Below, in pieces: positions 3,549 to 27,826 of a stretch of DNA of 42,020 bases (positions are counted from its first letter, which is position 1; the number at the start of each line of letters is the position of its first letter). Under the pieces are notes generated by a model that ran no database searches, was not told the DNA's origin, and saw only the letters and a list, made by a program, of their open reading frames with translations. Source of the stretch: Nanobdellota archaeon (GTDB taxonomy: Archaea; Nanobdellota; Nanobdellia; Parvarchaeales; Parvarchaeaceae); assembly GCA_021802105.1 (NCBI GenBank), contig JAKAAW010000004.1:1-42020 (forward strand), read 5' to 3'. The translations under genes and the position numbers were made by a program.

Positions 3549-3827
3549 ATGGCAAAAGTTACAGTTACAATATGTGACATGTGTAAGCAGAGAATAGCTA
3601 CCAAGACTTGTCCGGTATGCGGCAAAGATCTGTGTGAAGCTGATACTAAATCGTTCTCTGTTGACGTTGGATTACGGTTTGGTCCAAGGGTAGAAGTTTA
3701 CCACGGTTACATGTGCGATGGGGATTACAAGAAGCTGGAAACAAATCTGGGAAAGACCCTCGGAAAAATAGGAGAAAAGATAAAACAAGAGATAGATGGG
3801 GTAATCTCCGAGAGCGTAGCGCAGTAA
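3549..3827 (+). CDS. small zinc-binding protein (92 aa)
   Basis: CDMCKQRIATKTCPVCGKDLC: paired CxxC motifs; otherwise unassigned. Confidence 0.65.
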   Translation: MAKVTVTICDMCKQRIATKTCPVCGKDLCEADTKSFSVDVGLRFGPRVEVYHGYMCDGDYKKLETNLGKTLGKIGEKIKQEIDGVISESVAQ

Positions 3828-3876
3828 ATCACCATAGAAAGGTTTATTTATAGGTTCGCAGCTTATGATATTTTAT

Positions 3877-3990
3877 CCACCTGTAGCCCAATGGTAGAGC
3901 GACCGGCTGTAGATATAACTAAGTGCTATTTTATTAGTGCGATGAGGAGCGGCGACCGGTAGGTTGGGGGTTCAAATCCGCCCAGGTGGA
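3877..3990 (+). tRNA. trnY: tRNA-Tyr (anticodon GTA) with a 42-nt intron at canonical position 37/38 (intron about 3913-3954)
   Basis: Acceptor CCACCTG/CAGGTGG with C1-G72 and A73 (archaeal Tyr identity), anticodon stem ACCGG/CCGGT, loop CTGTAG-intron-A, T-loop TTCAAAT. Confidence 0.9.
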
Positions 3991-4059
3991 TATTCTTATT
4001 TCTAATACCTCTGCAAGTATACCACTTAATTATATAAGTAGTACACAACAATAATTAAA

Positions 4060-4656
4060 ATGGTTATGCAGAGTGTTCTGATATGCGTGCATGGGTATAC
4101 TAGGGCGCCGAAAGTCCTGCATAGACCTTGGGAAGATGTGATGCTGGACAGGCTAACTGCCGCATACAAACTTTCTGAGTTCCTTCACAGTGCGAACGTG
4201 ACAAGCTACCTTATACTTTCAGGGGGAGTCGTCTCAAATGGCGAGGTGGAAGCAGATAAGATATATGAGTTCGCGAAAAGAAAACTCCCAGGGCTGTTCG
4301 AACTTGTAACAGATGTCATACTTGAGAGAGAATCCAAGAACACCCAGGAAAACGTTGATGAGATAATAAAATGGGCAAAGAAGAAGAACGCTGCTATCAT
4401 CGCTGTCAGCAGCAAAGATCACGCTCCGAGAATAGCAAAGGACTGGGCTTATGATAAGAACAGGAAGGGGCATCTGATAATGATAGCCCCTTCAGAGGAA
4501 TCCTATAGTGAGTCTGGCTCTATGGATTCGCCGATAATAATAGAACCTCCTTTTTGGGCGTATGAGAGTCTTAAAGACATATTTAACGTCCCTGCTAATA
4601 AGGTAGAAGAGGTGAAAAGGAAAATAGCTGAGATAATAGGCACAGCGATGGAGTAG
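4060..4656 (+). CDS. DUF218/YdcF-like (ElyC/SanA superfamily) domain protein
   Basis: ILSGGVVSNGEVEADKI..., RESKNTQENV, SSKDHAPRIAKDWA pattern typical of the DUF218 fold. Confidence 0.65.
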   Translation: MVMQSVLICVHGYTRAPKVLHRPWEDVMLDRLTAAYKLSEFLHSANVTSYLILSGGVVSNGEVEADKIYEFAKRKLPGLFELVTDVILERESKNTQENVDEIIKWAKKKNAAIIAVSSKDHAPRIAKDWAYDKNRKGHLIMIAPSEESYSESGSMDSPIIIEPPFWAYESLKDIFNVPANKVEEVKRKIAEIIGTAME

Positions 4657-20913: not shown

Positions 20914-22656
20914 ATGAACCTCCAAGCAGTTGCCAGATACGAAAAAATGATAATGTCCCCTGCTACTTCGGTAAAAGACGTAGACAACTGGATAAATGAG
21001 CTTAAGGCCCGCGCGTCCAGCATAGAGGGTCACTATTCTGGAAAGCTAGAAGAGTTCCGCTTCGCTGGCAAGTTTGAAAGGCCTGCAAGTGGACTTCTTG
21101 GTGGGGAAAAGGGCTCTCTGGTATCCCTTGATATAGAAAAGGGTTACCAGTTCCAAACCGAATACAACATGCTCATGCAGGAGCTAGGCGGATTGGGATA
21201 CACGGAAAAACTGAAAACCGCGGAATCAATTGATCCTGCAGCAATCTCAAATATAATGACAATGGTGTTCGAGAAGAGGAAAGCTTTTGAAGATAGGGCC
21301 ATGACTTTGCTCGGCAGTGTGAACGCAGTGCTTAAATCCATAATATCTATAACATACGAACTGAGGGAGCTTGATAGGAACCTGCAGTTCTATAATCTCT
21401 TAGAATCAACAGACAAGGAGAAGAAAGCTGCGGCAGAACTGGCTCTCAAGAGGATATTCGTGGACCAGGTCGACGCGAGGAAGAGAGGTGCAAGTCTTTC
21501 GGCGCTGTCGAACGGATACACTCAAGGGCAAGGGGGCGCAGGTTTTATAGACTTAGTCGCATCCTTCTACAAAGTTACAAGCTTAAAGGACATAGCGAAC
21601 ATGCAGAGAAATACCGAGTACAAAGACATCCTGAAGAACAGGTATATAGAATATGAGGAATGGAGGAAATTAAGTGGGTCTGATCTCAAACAGAGGAGGT
21701 CTATGCTTCTACAGTATCTGAAGAGTCAGGTATCCTCCTATAAGATGTACTCCGAGTGGGCTGCGGAATCGCTTACTATACTTAAAAGAATAAATCTCAC
21801 TGGTACAAAAAGTGCAGGGGAGTACCTTGGAAAAATAAAACAGCCTGACATCTTCGAAACAGCGAAGTTTAGCGTATCTATAATAAATGGGAAGCCCATC
21901 TACATGAACGATTACGCAGTCGAGAGTGCGAAAGTGTTCGGAAATAGGGGCATACAGATTCCAGTTAAGGTATCCATAAAAAGTCCAGCTTCTGCACCTA
22001 TAACGCAGGGACCCAAGGAGAGCAGCAGGGCATTCACTTACAAGAGAATCACGAAATACGGGCCAAAAGTTGTGGCGGCCATAGAGGCAGAGATTTCATT
22101 CACAGAGAAACAGATGTTCATCAAGGGCGTTCCGCAGGAGAGGCCACAGTACTATGGTACTTTTGATATGAAGCTCGTACCATATTGCTTCACGCTGGAT
22201 GAGTGGTATCTATTCAAAAAAGCACAGGAGGCTAAGATAAACAAGACGGTTTTCTCCGGTCTCGATAGCGTTGCCGTTTCCTCTCTAGGATCAATACAGA
22301 AAGAACTTGACAAATACATGGTGGAAGCGGAGAAGGAGTCAGTAAAAAAGACCGCCAAGAAAAGCGATAGCTACGCTTTCATCGACATATACAGGTCATT
22401 TAAAGATGATATATTCGGGATTAATAAGGCTATGTCACTGTTCACGCCGACCATGGATAGGAAATCAAGTATTTTCAAAGCCGACACTTACGAGATAGCG
22501 GTCAGCCACAGGAAGTTTGGCGCAGCCAGGGTGAAATCCGCTATCTCTGCAGGCATGTTTGTGGCGATGGATGACCTATCACTGATATATGAAGAGTTCA
22601 AGCGCAGAAAGAAACTTCTCACGCCGTTGTCAAAGTTTGACAACCCTCTGTTTTGA
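20914..22656 (+). CDS. orphan 580-aa soluble alpha-rich protein
   Basis: Long clean ORF, rich in Lys/Glu/Ser, no TM segments or motif recognised. Confidence 0.75.
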   Translation: MNLQAVARYEKMIMSPATSVKDVDNWINELKARASSIEGHYSGKLEEFRFAGKFERPASGLLGGEKGSLVSLDIEKGYQFQTEYNMLMQELGGLGYTEKLKTAESIDPAAISNIMTMVFEKRKAFEDRAMTLLGSVNAVLKSIISITYELRELDRNLQFYNLLESTDKEKKAAAELALKRIFVDQVDARKRGASLSALSNGYTQGQGGAGFIDLVASFYKVTSLKDIANMQRNTEYKDILKNRYIEYEEWRKLSGSDLKQRRSMLLQYLKSQVSSYKMYSEWAAESLTILKRINLTGTKSAGEYLGKIKQPDIFETAKFSVSIINGKPIYMNDYAVESAKVFGNRGIQIPVKVSIKSPASAPITQGPKESSRAFTYKRITKYGPKVVAAIEAEISFTEKQMFIKGVPQERPQYYGTFDMKLVPYCFTLDEWYLFKKAQEAKINKTVFSGLDSVAVSSLGSIQKELDKYMVEAEKESVKKTAKKSDSYAFIDIYRSFKDDIFGINKAMSLFTPTMDRKSSIFKADTYEIAVSHRKFGAARVKSAISAGMFVAMDDLSLIYEEFKRRKKLLTPLSKFDNPLF

Positions 22657-22660
22657 TAGT

Positions 22661-22837
22661 ATGTTAAACAAAAAGGGAGAGATGCCTATAACTGAGATAG
22701 TCGCCATAGTCATCGCCCTTATCTTGGCTGGGATAGGAGTCGTAATAGCGGCTACCTTCCTTTTGGGAGGAGGAACCAGTATAGCCAACGATATACTTAA
22801 AGCAATATCGTTCAGCTGGTTGTTTGGTAATGGATAA
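22661..22837 (+). CDS. micro-pilin-like membrane protein 1 (58 aa)
   Basis: MLNKKGEMPITEIVAIVIALILAGIGVVIAATFLLGGGTSIANDILKAISFSWLFGNG. Confidence 0.65.
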   Translation: MLNKKGEMPITEIVAIVIALILAGIGVVIAATFLLGGGTSIANDILKAISFSWLFGNG

Positions 22838-23003
22838 GAAAGGGTCTGTGCAGGGAACGGTTCTTCTGTATGTAGTACTAATGATAGTCCTTATTATAAT
22901 AGTGATAATAGTACTGGAGCTGTTCACGCCATACAAATTCTCCAATCTGATAGATTCTTTTATATCCGCGGCCAGCCACAGCGGTGGAGGACAGTATGCA
23001 TAA
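22830..23003 (+). CDS. micro-pilin-like membrane protein 2 (57 aa; not in ORF track)
   Basis: Hand translation MDKKGSVQGTVLLYVVLMIVLIIIVIIVLELFTPYKFSNLIDSFISAASHSGGGQYA; starts inside the previous stop (ATGGATAA). Confidence 0.65.
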   Translation: MDKKGSVQGTVLLYVVLMIVLIIIVIIVLELFTPYKFSNLIDSFISAASHSGGGQYA

Positions 23004-23142
23004 GAAAGGGGTCACAGACTACGTGCTCCTCATGATAATAATCATAGTAATCTCCCTTGTCATAGTGATATTCTATCTGGTAATCTTCTCCCCCGGAGCC
23101 CTGGGCAAGTTAATACCTCCTCTCCCAAATCCTTTCGGGTGA
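22996..23142 (+). CDS. micro-pilin-like membrane protein 3 (48 aa; not in ORF track)
   Basis: Hand translation MHKKGVTDYVLLMIIIIVISLVIVIFYLVIFSPGALGKLIPPLPNPFG; starts inside the previous stop (ATGCATAA). Confidence 0.62.
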   Translation: MHKKGVTDYVLLMIIIIVISLVIVIFYLVIFSPGALGKLIPPLPNPFG

Positions 23143-23148
23143 CATGAT

Positions 23149-23325
23149 ATGAACGGCAAAGGCATAACGGAGACGACTATATATTATATAATAGCGCTAG
23201 TGCTTGCCATAATCTTGATAATAATCTATATACTACTCGCCGGGCCCAACGTAATCTCCAATGCAATATCTAGCGTGCTCTCCGGCTTCAAATCTTCGAT
23301 AACTTCAGGTCTAGGCAGTATATAA
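23149..23325 (+). CDS. micro-pilin-like membrane protein 4 (58 aa; not in ORF track)
   Basis: Hand translation MNGKGITETTIYYIIALVLAIILIIIYILLAGPNVISNAISSVLSGFKSSITSGLGSI. Confidence 0.62.
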   Translation: MNGKGITETTIYYIIALVLAIILIIIYILLAGPNVISNAISSVLSGFKSSITSGLGSI

Positions 23326-23700: not shown

Positions 23701-24075
23701 TTAATCTTTTAGCACGGCTGCTATCTCATCTGCCGATCTTTTTGTGTACATCTTAATGAGACCATAGTTTGCATTGGGATCCGTCATCACAGTTAATATA
23801 GCGTTTTCACCGGCTTTTATAGCGACTACCCGTATGTCCTTCGATTCAGCGAATATCGTGTCAAATATGTTTTTTGACCCAAGATATTTTAGAGCCTCTT
23901 CAGCTGCACCAACCATAGAAGCCATCATGGCGGCGAAGTTATTCGGGTCTATGTCCTGTGGTATCCTGTGTACTATAGGCAGCCCGTCCGCAGATATGAC
24001 GGCTGATGCTTTTATCCCGCCGACCTCTCCGAGTTTCTCTAAGATCATGCTCATTGATTCGGATTTTGTGGCCAT
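23701..24075 (-). CDS. Roadblock/LC7 domain protein (MglB-like)
   Basis: ILEKLGEVGGIKASAVISADGLPIVHRIPQDIDPNNFAAMMASMVGAAEEAL...AILTVMTDPNANYGLI: Roadblock fold signature. Confidence 0.88.
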   Translation of the reverse strand: MATKSESMSMILEKLGEVGGIKASAVISADGLPIVHRIPQDIDPNNFAAMMASMVGAAEEALKYLGSKNIFDTIFAESKDIRVVAIKAGENAILTVMTDPNANYGLIKMYTKRSADEIAAVLKD

Positions 24076-24112
24076 ATAACTAATTATAACTCATACTTAA
24101 TTTAAGCATTTA

Positions 24113-25321
24113 CTAAGTCAGCTCCTCAAAAAGCGCAGAGAGGGCTGCTTCTATCCCCTCTTTCTTAAGTTTTGCCGGTTTGTTAGGGTCTATATTCTCC
24201 ACGTTCTCAGCAACAGTCTGTATCAGTGGTGCTTCTTTCTCAAGGTGTAGTTTATCTCTTACCTCATCAATGCCGAGCGCACCCGGCATATTAGCCTTAT
24301 TTGCTACAACGACTATAGGCAGACCGTATGTCTCGGTCTTCCTAAGCATCTCTATCGCTCTTGGAAACTGCGTTGGTTTTGTAGAATCTATTATGAGTAT
24401 AACTCCTACTGCTTCACCGCCCAGCAGCTTAAGGAGTGGATCGAACCTTTCCTGTCCAGGAGTGCCGAAAAGATCCGCCTTATAACCCTTAAAATCAACG
24501 TTACCATGATCAAGGGCTATAGTACCGCCTAATCTGTCAACACTTATTGCGTCCTTAGAAGCTGAGTGAATGAAAGAGGTCTTGCCGGCATCCGTTGGAC
24601 CGGTGACCAGTATCTTGGGGAAATATATTTTTATTCCCCCTGGTTTTACTGATTTGAAAAGCACAGAGGTGAATTTTTTGCCTATCACCCAGTCACACTT
24701 TATGACAGCGAAGTACTGCCCGAATATGACGCGTTTCTCTATCCCTTTGATGTCGACTCTAGCGTTTACTTTTGATATAAGTTTATCCACGTTGTCTTCG
24801 CCGTAATTCCAATCAGTGAAAAGGAAAACCGCAGAACTGTCAGAGTTCTTTATCTTGTTGTTGATTAGGTCTACTATAGAAAGTGCAAAATCAAAGTCGA
24901 AGAAATCGGCTATGAGCGAGAGTGAATCTATGACTATTAAATCGTAATCCTTTTCAAGTTCATCTGTAATAGCTTTTTTTATCTCTTCTTTGTCATATGG
25001 GTTTTTTATCATCCTGCCTATGCTGCCATCGGACGAATTTATACCCGTTATACCGCTGTAGGAATCTATCATGGATAGGTTATCGTTGGTAATAAAGTCA
25101 TACTCCTTCATATCAGCCAGATACGCTTTCGGAGACGCACGGTTTAGGTACAAGAGCACCTTATTGTTGTGGATGAGGTTGTTTTGTATCAGCTGGTAGC
25201 CGAAAACTTCGTTTCCGACAGCAGGAGAGGCAAAGAAGAGGACTCCTTTCCTAGCAGGTATACCGCTAAGCTCTTCGTCAAGCCTACCTATCCCGAATAT
25301 TGGGTCTTTTCCTTTAGCCAT
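24113..25321 (-). CDS. fusion: degenerate KaiC/RecA-like domain + Ras-like small GTPase domain
   Basis: N-terminal IFGIGRLDEELSGIPARKGVLFFASPAVGNEVFGYQL and Walker-B-like DYDLIVIDSLSLI; C-terminal G1 GPTDAGKTSF, G3 DLFGTPGQERF, G4 VANKANM. Confidence 0.85.
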   Translation of the reverse strand: MAKGKDPIFGIGRLDEELSGIPARKGVLFFASPAVGNEVFGYQLIQNNLIHNNKVLLYLNRASPKAYLADMKEYDFITNDNLSMIDSYSGITGINSSDGSIGRMIKNPYDKEEIKKAITDELEKDYDLIVIDSLSLIADFFDFDFALSIVDLINNKIKNSDSSAVFLFTDWNYGEDNVDKLISKVNARVDIKGIEKRVIFGQYFAVIKCDWVIGKKFTSVLFKSVKPGGIKIYFPKILVTGPTDAGKTSFIHSASKDAISVDRLGGTIALDHGNVDFKGYKADLFGTPGQERFDPLLKLLGGEAVGVILIIDSTKPTQFPRAIEMLRKTETYGLPIVVVANKANMPGALGIDEVRDKLHLEKEAPLIQTVAENVENIDPNKPAKLKKEGIEAALSALFEELT

Positions 25322-25363
25322 ACAGAGAGTTGTCAGACATGGAATATAACCCTTTCAGGCAGT

Positions 25364-26023
25364 TCAGATGTCTTTCCAGTCAAGCACCTCTTTAGCGTTG
25401 CCGGAGACCTTAAAGGTTCTCTTCCCCCCTTCCATCTTAAGTGATATAACCGCGTCCATAAGTGATTTTATAGTTTCGTTTACGTCCGGGGCGTGCATCT
25501 CATTGTCTATTAAAAAGACGCTTGATATCCCAGCCATTTTGGCGCGCCCACACACGAACTGAAGAAATCGGTACATCGTTGTCGGATTGTTGTACAGAAG
25601 AAGAACTGAAAGGGAATCTATAATGTTAAGCACCGGGATGCCTTCTTTAGACATGTCCGCGTTCATAGCGGACAGAGCCACCGATAATCCTGTCAGGTCT
25701 AAAGGCCCGTTAAGCATCTTTGTGTAATTATTATCTCCCGCCTGAGGGGTTATACTCCTGCTGTACACATCTATAAGCTTGAGAGATGTGCCTAGATACT
25801 GCGCTATGTTAAGGTGTTTTGACGAGAATTCTGATAGGACGTCGCTTACTGGTTTCCCGGTGGTAACATACACGACCGCTACTTTGCTCTGCAGTGCAGA
25901 CGTTACGGCTCGGTAGATAAAATCCTCCTTGTTGCTCTCTTTATTCCCGCTTAGAAGATATGTTTTGCGCAGATCTATCCCTCCGACAGAATCGTCGAAA
26001 GAACTTATTCCTGTCTTTATCAT
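25364..26023 (-). CDS. KaiC/RecA-like protein lacking a Walker A
   Basis: TGISSFDDSVGGIDLRKTYLLSGNKESNKEDFIYRAVTSAL (canonical SGxxGxGKT replaced by SGNKESNKE); VLNIIDSLSVLLLY. Confidence 0.75.
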   Translation of the reverse strand: MIKTGISSFDDSVGGIDLRKTYLLSGNKESNKEDFIYRAVTSALQSKVAVVYVTTGKPVSDVLSEFSSKHLNIAQYLGTSLKLIDVYSRSITPQAGDNNYTKMLNGPLDLTGLSVALSAMNADMSKEGIPVLNIIDSLSVLLLYNNPTTMYRFLQFVCGRAKMAGISSVFLIDNEMHAPDVNETIKSLMDAVISLKMEGGKRTFKVSGNAKEVLDWKDI

Positions 26024-26637
26024 ACCTTAAGCAATTTAACGCGCTTAGATTTTGTGCCTATGGATGTGCCATCAACAGTTATAGAAACGTCCACTGTAAG
26101 CTCATCATCTTTCTGATCGAACGTTATCTCCTCCTTAGCCGATTTCTCAACAGATACGTTTATGAAGGGGAAAAGGTAGTTTATGAGACTCCTGAAAAGG
26201 GCCTTCTGGTCCCCTCTTTTAATTATCATAGAGACTGTATCATTAAGATCCTGCGTATTGACTATCTTGAAATAGTCAGTCTCTATTATGAGGTCCGTTA
26301 TTTTCTCGTGTGGAAGCTCAAGCAGGTCGTTTATGGTGTCCCTTATATTTTCGTCAGCACCAAATCGCTTGGATACGCTTCTTGGTTTGCCTCCTGCGAT
26401 AAAATCAATCGTGAGTTCCGTAGAGTTGACTAGATAGAGCCTTAAGAGAATCTTGTATATCCCGTCCGCGTACAACCTAAGCGGGTGCGTTACCTTAAGC
26501 TTCACAGCCCCTTCAAGGTATTCCAGGTTAATATCTAGCCTTTTCGCAGGTATTATACTGTTAAGAGTTGATGCCGACCCTGCACCATCAAAGAATTTCC
26601 TGAGTTCATTTATAGCCTCAAAAGCGTTCATCTCCAT
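26020..26637 (-). CDS. hypothetical protein (205 aa) in the KaiC/GTPase cluster
   Basis: 4-nt overlap with the KaiC-like gene; no motif recognised. Confidence 0.65.
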   Translation of the reverse strand: MEMNAFEAINELRKFFDGAGSASTLNSIIPAKRLDINLEYLEGAVKLKVTHPLRLYADGIYKILLRLYLVNSTELTIDFIAGGKPRSVSKRFGADENIRDTINDLLELPHEKITDLIIETDYFKIVNTQDLNDTVSMIIKRGDQKALFRSLINYLFPFINVSVEKSAKEEITFDQKDDELTVDVSITVDGTSIGTKSKRVKLLKV

Positions 26638-26673
26638 ATCAGATTATGTTCTTCAATAAATATAAAATAGATT

Positions 26674-27252
26674 TTATGCACAAACACCTGTTGAAGAGGA
26701 CGCTGGAGCATATAGAGCGGTCTCGTTCGGATAGAGCGCGAAAGCAGAATGCGAAGTAGATATTATTACAGCCACGTATCCTGCGCATCCCGCACTATCA
26801 TTGAACCATCCAGAGATGCTGTTCCCTCCCAATTCGAACACGTTGGCTGTATTAACGCCGTTTGAATTGACCCAGTTTACATACTGCTGGTTTGTCATCA
26901 CCATAAATCTAGTGTTGGTTGTGGCATTGTACTGCATATGCACCCTGAAAGTATCCGGTATTGAAAGGAATATATATGAGCCAGCCGGCTCTGATATCTT
27001 CTGGTTCCATATGTACAATAAAGGACTGTTATTGATGAATCTAAAGCTGAGAGGTATAATGTTGCCTTCAGATATTGCTATAGAAGAATTTTGTGTCAGG
27101 CAGAAACCGGACCCATTTTTGAACACAAGAGTAGTATTCTCACTGCAGCTGTTTATTAGCAAGAGGTGGTTGGAGAAAGCGTAAAAGAACCCCACTGCTA
27201 TGAGCACTATAAAAAGAAGACTTAAAATTTGTCCAGCATCAGAAGATTTCAT
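26674..27252 (-). CDS. pilin-like anchored protein with Cys-containing ectodomain
   Basis: MKSSDAGQILSLLFIVLIAVGFFYAFSNHLLLINSC: AGQ plus hydrophobic helix. Confidence 0.65.
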   Translation of the reverse strand: MKSSDAGQILSLLFIVLIAVGFFYAFSNHLLLINSCSENTTLVFKNGSGFCLTQNSSIAISEGNIIPLSFRFINNSPLLYIWNQKISEPAGSYIFLSIPDTFRVHMQYNATTNTRFMVMTNQQYVNWVNSNGVNTANVFELGGNSISGWFNDSAGCAGYVAVIISTSHSAFALYPNETALYAPASSSTGVCA

Positions 27253-27291
27253 AGTATGATTAGCACATTCGTCGATTTAACATCTGCCAAA

Positions 27292-27660
27292 TCAGGATCT
27301 ATAGCTGCCGCAATTAGGTATCGTTCCAGTTATAGACCAGGCAACCGTTGTCCCGTTGTTTAGGACGCAGCTGCTCGTTCCGCCAGGGACAGTCCCACAG
27401 GACCATGTCGTTCCACTTATAGTATCATTTGGATATGTGCACCACTGCGCAGGGTTGTTTACGGCAGAGGATTCAGAGCAAGCGGTCTGGCAGTTTGCCG
27501 CGAAAGCCTGTTCGGCCTGGGTGTTAGGGTTCGTGGCGCCTCCTATACCTTTGAATCCACCGAGAACGAAGGTTATAAAAAGAACCAGAATGAGAAGGCC
27601 TATAGCTATGAGGATTATTGTATTTATCGGTAACCCTTGTCCTTTTGAGCTTAAAACCAT
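27292..27660 (-). CDS. pilin-like protein with class III-like signal and Cys-rich ectodomain
   Basis: MVLSSKGQGLPINTIILIAIGLLILVLFITFVLGG then several Cys; internal start chosen at 27660. Confidence 0.68.
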   Translation of the reverse strand: MVLSSKGQGLPINTIILIAIGLLILVLFITFVLGGFKGIGGATNPNTQAEQAFAANCQTACSESSAVNNPAQWCTYPNDTISGTTWSCGTVPGGTSSCVLNNGTTVAWSITGTIPNCGSYRS

Positions 27661-27826
27661 TATCATAAATGTCTTTTTTAGTATTTAAATATTGCATTAC
27701 TATGAGACAGTCTGCAACTGAATCATGCAATGTGGTCCTTATTATTGGAGTCCAGGCGATGATTTTTTGCAATGAATCCTATTTTTTCTGGATTAATCAT
27801 TTTTAACATGGCACTTAGCGATGAGC

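Follow-up and report, generated by a model that had tools for sequence, protein, structure and literature searches.

Archaea of the DPANN group live attached to other archaea, and the machinery of this attachment is largely unknown. Among pilins of small size, those of bacterial Tad/Flp systems are minimal proteins with a single helix and a short tail, and the Epd pilins of Methanococcus and Thermococcus, which have class III signal peptides, are associated with EppA and belong to clade 1 of type IV pili, are about 70 aa long. Short pilins have been noted for Tad-type systems in the literature (PMC6711533). The closest described loci are the type IV pilus islands of DPANN genomes, where a pilus ATPase and a TadC-type platform lie beside unannotated signal-peptide proteins, for which a role as diverse pilins was predicted (Makarova et al. 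2019, PMC6393860, Fig. 2A). According to the archaeal prepilin rule, the leader ends with a charged residue at -2 followed by Gly, Ala or Ser at -1, and a hydrophobic helix comes immediately after it (PMC4371748).

Four short genes downstream of a 580-aa gene

The window, i.e. the whole stretch of 42,020 nucleotides analysed here, forms contig C1 in the draft genome (669 kb, completeness 89.5%) of an ultra-small, probably host-dependent archaeon of the DPANN group; a protein encoded next to the genes described below is 71-72% identical to that of the nearest named relative, the MAG 'Nanoarchaeota archaeon MAS3.bin115'. Judged by its composition, the family is presumably Parvarchaeaceae (compare PMC10134863). 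On the plus strand, the gene of a 580-aa protein (20914..22656) ends 4 nt upstream of a string of four very short genes, with which it is likely co-transcribed. Gene 1 (22661..22837) encodes 58 aa with the N-terminus MLNKKGE (leader MLNKKG), Glu at +1 and +6 and a conserved tail SFSWLFG; gene 2 (22830..23003) encodes 57 aa with the N-terminus MDKKGS (leader MDKKG) and a conserved FTPYK; gene 3 (22996..23142) encodes 48 aa with the N-terminus MHKKGV (leader MHKKG) and a conserved LPxxP tail; gene 4 (23149..23325) encodes 58 aa with the N-terminus MNGKGI (leader MNGKG), an invariant Glu at +3 and a conserved GP followed by an amphipathic tail. All four are plus-strand genes, and each product has one transmembrane helix. 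Their coordinates, lengths and N-termini, first proposed in a sequence-only reading of this DNA, proved exact when checked base by base. The same reading had them all overlapping, which holds for genes 1 and 2 (8-nt stop/start overlap at 22830..22837, ATGGATAA) and for genes 2 and 3 (8 nt at 22996..23003, ATGCATAA); genes 3 and 4 are separated by a 6-nt gap, so that only three of the four ORFs overlap.

The string was sought in relatives, as the sequence-only reading had suggested, and the same four hydrophobic micro-ORFs were found in the same order in all 26 same-genus genomes whose flank behind the 580-aa gene was read. Gene 1 was detected by whole-genome search in all 32 genomes of the family, the remaining six carrying the four genes at another site. 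Neither loss of the frames nor absence of a synonymous bias, the two outcomes named in advance as speaking against coding function, was observed: the frames are kept in 26/26 genomes, and pooled dN/dS across them is 0.215 for gene 1, 0.203 for gene 2, 0.259 for gene 3 and 0.245 for gene 4. Nucleotide differences fall mostly at third codon positions in all four genes, and of the 52 alternative-frame cases examined for each gene, 48 to 51 are interrupted by stop codons. The four ORFs are almost certainly real, conserved protein-coding genes.

The gene junctions are conserved as well. Genes 1 and 2 overlap by 8 or 4 nt in 22/26 genomes and genes 2 and 3 by 8 nt in 16/26, which fits the translational coupling suggested earlier for both pairs; the four proteins might be made in equal stoichiometry. 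It should be added that one genome, G007, has a 185-nt spacer between genes 3 and 4, seen there alone among the genomes read.

Across genomes the products range from 46 to 62 aa, are extremely hydrophobic and have almost no exposed domain. Alignments gave distinct family signatures, namely SFxWL(F/Y)G for gene 1, FTPYK for gene 2, LPxxP for gene 3, and an invariant Glu and Tyr with a GP turn for gene 4; in gene 3, Asp or Glu occupies +2 or +3 in 24/26 genomes. Comparison of profiles with hhalign showed mutual similarity of genes 2 and 4 (97.7%) and of genes 3 and 4 (97.3%), against 38-79% for reversed controls, and indicates paralogy among genes 2-4. The case of genes 2 and 3 is less clear: their similarity of 96.5% is partly due to composition, as the reversed control reached 89%, and paralogy therefore rests mainly on the other two pairs. 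No credible family in Pfam, NCBIfam or PDB covers any of the four proteins, and a PDB profile search with gene 1 matched only chance membrane helices. For gene 2, DUF350 was considered (E 1e-4) and discarded, being below the family cut-off and reflecting the hydrophobic helix.

Prepilin-like leaders and their loss in gene 4

Leaders conforming to the prepilin rule are encoded by gene 1 in 31/31 genomes, gene 2 in 28/31 and gene 3 in 30/31, the copies in the window included. For gene 4, the window copy (NGKG-ITE) and most relatives that have a leader conform to it, whereas 16 genomes of one clade encode none; the automatic count of 29/31 for this gene is inflated by 'ES/EA' in the leaderless copies. 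The latter start with M-E-(S/A/E)-(V/I)-W where the others have K-G-I-T-E, and the DNA upstream of them encodes no leader. In a tree of the 580-aa protein, the loss maps to one event, in a clade of 16 genomes (support 97/93). The leaderless proteins begin almost exactly where the processed form would, and keep the invariant Glu and Tyr; leader loss thus mimics the mature form, which is compatible with cleavage as the normal route for gene 4 in other clades. At the same time, the leaderless state of a whole clade implies that prepilin cleavage is not essential for gene 4.

Downstream of the predicted cleavage site, gene 1 has Gln at +1 in 18 and an acidic residue at +6 in 25 of the 26 genomes. 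Gln at +1 is absent from genes 2-4, and the classical Glu at +5 of class III pilins from all four genes, in the same 26 genomes. The class-III-like (KG) N-termini ascribed to the whole string in the sequence-only reading are therefore borne out in part: genes 1-3 retain a prepilin-like leader, while gene 4 is leaderless in 16 genomes and the Glu at +5 is missing.

Genomic context and the proposed pilus-like machine

Two genomes of the same genus (G023/G027) and two other genera (g2, g3) carry the string away from the 580-aa gene. At these sites (G023/G027, G028, G029, G030/G031) the four genes directly follow genes for single-helix proteins of ~500 and ~145 aa, preceded, where the contig reaches, by ~330- and 53-aa single-helix genes; the whole block comprises single-helix proteins of ~165, 53, ~330, ~500 and ~145 aa with the four genes at its end. 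GINS-like and helicase-like genes come after the string in most of these loci, and in G030/G031 the prepilin peptidase gene is no more than about 5 kb away from it. In other families (G036, G045, G055, G058), a preserved order runs from the ATPase and the platform through genes for a ~160-aa protein, a small helix, a ~300-aa and a ~500-aa protein to gene 1 and gene 4; order preservation was recorded for loci L118, L119, L128 and L138. Larger cysteine-rich proteins with a helix at the N-terminus are also encoded at the locus in other families. The ATPase of these loci is ~760 aa long and the platform is a single protein of ~700 aa; this ATPase was found in 137/143 genomes of the class.

Proximity was also assessed across the class. 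Among 72 non-family genomes with a gene-1 match at E <= 1e-3, obtained with a wider profile (A6) that includes three class-level members, the best match lay within 10 kb of the ~760-aa ATPase gene in 33, three of which are members of the profile itself; two or three of 72 would be expected at an assumed chance rate of 3.5%. Some class-level matches at E ~1e-4 may not be orthologues but different single-helix pilins encoded in these loci. An independent test with a gene 4 profile built from genus sequences alone gave matches in six non-family genomes, in four of which (G043, G045, G048, G058) the match directly follows that of gene 1 on the same strand, with spacings of -1, 23, 35 and 38 nt, respectively. 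From the closeness of gene 1 to the ATPase, together with gene 4 following gene 1, we conclude that the string once belonged to an old DPANN pilus locus and has become detached from it. The simplest history would be a single operon that was broken up in this family; in most of the genus, the string probably came to lie behind the 580-aa gene through an inversion of the segment with the four genes, GINS and helicase. In G004, the ~500-aa partner gene is convergent and about 3 kb from the string; in the species of the window, string and partner block are on different contigs.

The genome of the window encodes an assembly ATPase (PF00437), a platform (PF00482) and a prepilin peptidase (PF01478, protein E-value 5.4e-12), the last present in 35/38 genomes, and no pilus gene adjoins the four. 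The machine is spread over at least three contigs, with ATPase and platform on C11, the peptidase elsewhere on C11, a partner block on C2 and the four genes on C1. The partner block (L137, C2:12000-26000, minus strand) consists of 173-, 53-, 348- and 491-aa single-helix proteins near a MinD-type ATPase, together with a pilin-like 145-aa protein starting MRRGQATLELL. The ~490/500-aa family of this block has 17 invariant alignment columns, 13 of them Cys, and an AlphaFold model of its 491-aa member (pLDDT 70) had no fold match in PDB.

In our preferred reading, to which we give a probability of about 0.68, the products of the four genes (46-62 aa) are minimal subunits of type IV pilin type and belong to a pilus-like machine that is shared across this class of DPANN archaea; their processing and incorporation into a filament are proposed. 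The pilin-type membrane subunits suspected in the sequence-only reading gain support from the leaders of genes 1-3, from the peptidase, ATPase and platform of the genome and from the homologues of genes 1 and 4 in ATPase loci. Overlapping starts would couple translation, so that the four proteins are made together; each would be inserted N-in through its single helix, and a PibD/FlaK-like peptidase would remove the short leader (K/R-G/A) from the products of genes 1-3, as well as from that of gene 4 in genomes that encode one. The ~760-aa ATPase and the ~700-aa platform would then pack the helices into the core of a filament or pseudopilus, on which the large cysteine-rich proteins (~500 aa) could be displayed as the exposed partner. 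Judging from the DPANN lifestyle and the published discussion of Nanoarchaeota pili (PMC6142677), the displayed proteins would probably serve contact with the host cell. Whether the four form the filament core or a basal or tip complex is a guess that leans slightly towards the core. It is conceivable, though doubtful, that this core is an obligate heteropolymer of four (or five) helix-only pilins from one coupled string, one of them without a cleavable leader across a clade; to our knowledge, such a heteropolymeric, helix-only pilus architecture has not been seen before.

The most serious alternative, which we nevertheless hold to be rather unlikely, makes the four proteins membrane-embedded parts of the basal body, either as helices that staple the platform or as a complex for tip initiation, resembling minor pseudopilins, instead of filament subunits. 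Such a role would suit their extreme hydrophobicity and near lack of an exposed domain, as well as the retention of the invariant Glu and Tyr by gene 4 despite its single leader loss; the true filament or tip proteins could then be the larger ones encoded in the cluster (about 145 to 670 aa). However, short pilins are known as major subunits of Epd and Tad pili (PMC4858521, PMC6711533), and the conserved leaders of genes 1-3 argue for processing by the peptidase.

A second pilus system with an ATPase and a split TadB/TadC-like platform is encoded on contig C8 of the same genome (L078:6120-9621), and the four could be its missing short pilins, as Epd/Tad systems with short pilins typically have a split platform and a pilin-like gene was not found beside this one. 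We regard this as very improbable: G022 (98% complete) has the four genes, the ~760-aa ATPase and the peptidase but no match to the C8 platform, and in none of seven non-family genomes with both a gene-1 match and this platform did the two lie within 10 kb. The platform also went undetected in the less complete genomes G001, G003, G008, G018 and G023. As a separate observation, contig C13 of G038 carries a lone 51-aa single-helix ORF with a KKG start (L127:5748-5903), flanked by genes for 424 and 530 aa and lying 14 kb away from the Tad-like platform; it may be an orphan micro-pilin.

Less probable still is a membrane complex unrelated to pili, in which the four would be partners of the 580-aa protein. 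Their genes start within 10 nt downstream of the 580-aa gene in 26 genomes, but only one clade of the genus has this arrangement, G023/G027 as well as g2 and g3 have the string in the pilin block, and the 580-aa family occurs across the class (54/57 genomes) with other genes downstream, among them that of a ~500-650-aa protein and, in many cases, a nucleotidyltransferase-like gene. The 580-aa protein itself matched nothing in Pfam or NCBIfam, its AlphaFold model (pLDDT 76) had no PDB fold match, and it probably stands outside the pilus-like machine; the idea that its gene defines the system was rejected by synteny in G023/G027 and other genera. Elsewhere in the window, the minus strand holds an operon-like run (23701-27666). 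Its products are a roadblock/LC7 protein, a 402-aa protein in which a weakly KaiC-like region is fused to an Arf/Ras-like GTPase, a KaiC/DUF7504 protein and three others that have no match in Pfam. Finally, chance ORFs or a non-coding feature, which such short, low-complexity, hydrophobic frames might suggest, are refuted by the dN/dS values and by frames (26/26 genomes), third-position bias, order and overlaps conserved across the family. When the 665-bp region was shuffled 2000 times with dinucleotides preserved, a comparable ORF (>=46 aa, hydrophobic stretch at the N-terminus, [KR][GA] site) never arose, as against four in the real sequence.

Comparison with described pilus systems

Four small families missing from Pfam and NCBIfam serve as tags of a pilus-like machine, the ATPase of which occurs in nearly all genomes of the class. 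Since gene callers easily drop genes this short, pilin inventories of DPANN archaea may be incomplete. Moreover, the leader of gene 4 was lost once in nature, and this offers a built-in test of the need for prepilin cleavage in assembly.

Most archaeal pilins have a globular head, in contrast to the four proteins, which have none. In the genome of the window, two large pilin-like proteins with K-K-G-A and K-R-A-Q leaders are encoded beside the prepilin peptidase gene (L079:2682-3662 and 3664-4533): they share with the micro-proteins a K/R-G/A-type leader directly before the hydrophobic helix, and differ in their size of ~290-315 aa and their large outer domains.

Epd pilins resemble the four in their short length and K/R-G/A leader, and in the Gln at +1 that most gene 1 copies have. 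Unlike them, the four are without Glu at +5 and genes 2-4 without Gln at +1, and the linked ATPase is accompanied by a single ~700-aa platform, not a split one. With Tad/Flp pilins the four have in common the minimal, single-helix build with a short tail; however, they do not have the Flp motif GxxxxEY (Glu-Tyr at +5/+6) and are not linked to a split TadB/TadC platform. PF16982 (Flp1_like) gave one weak match (E 0.04), in one of 19 gene-1 members.

The closest likeness is to the DPANN pilus islands. A search for literature on DPANN pilins together with Woesearchaeota returned nothing; the island layout, with a T2SSE ATPase, a TadC/FlaJ-type platform and a row of signal-bearing proteins, was seen in G036, G045, G058, G103, G106 and G117. 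In contrast to these, the copy in the window is a detached fragment, the string standing away from the ATPase in this family. Compared with the published islands, taken here by their description, the present loci have strings of four 46-62 aa proteins in defined families, one of them leaderless in a clade. Islands with diverse predicted pilins were already known in DPANN archaea; the present analysis adds the definition of four micro-families, evidence that they are conserved, the observation that in one family they are detached from the rest of the locus, and the loss of a leader.
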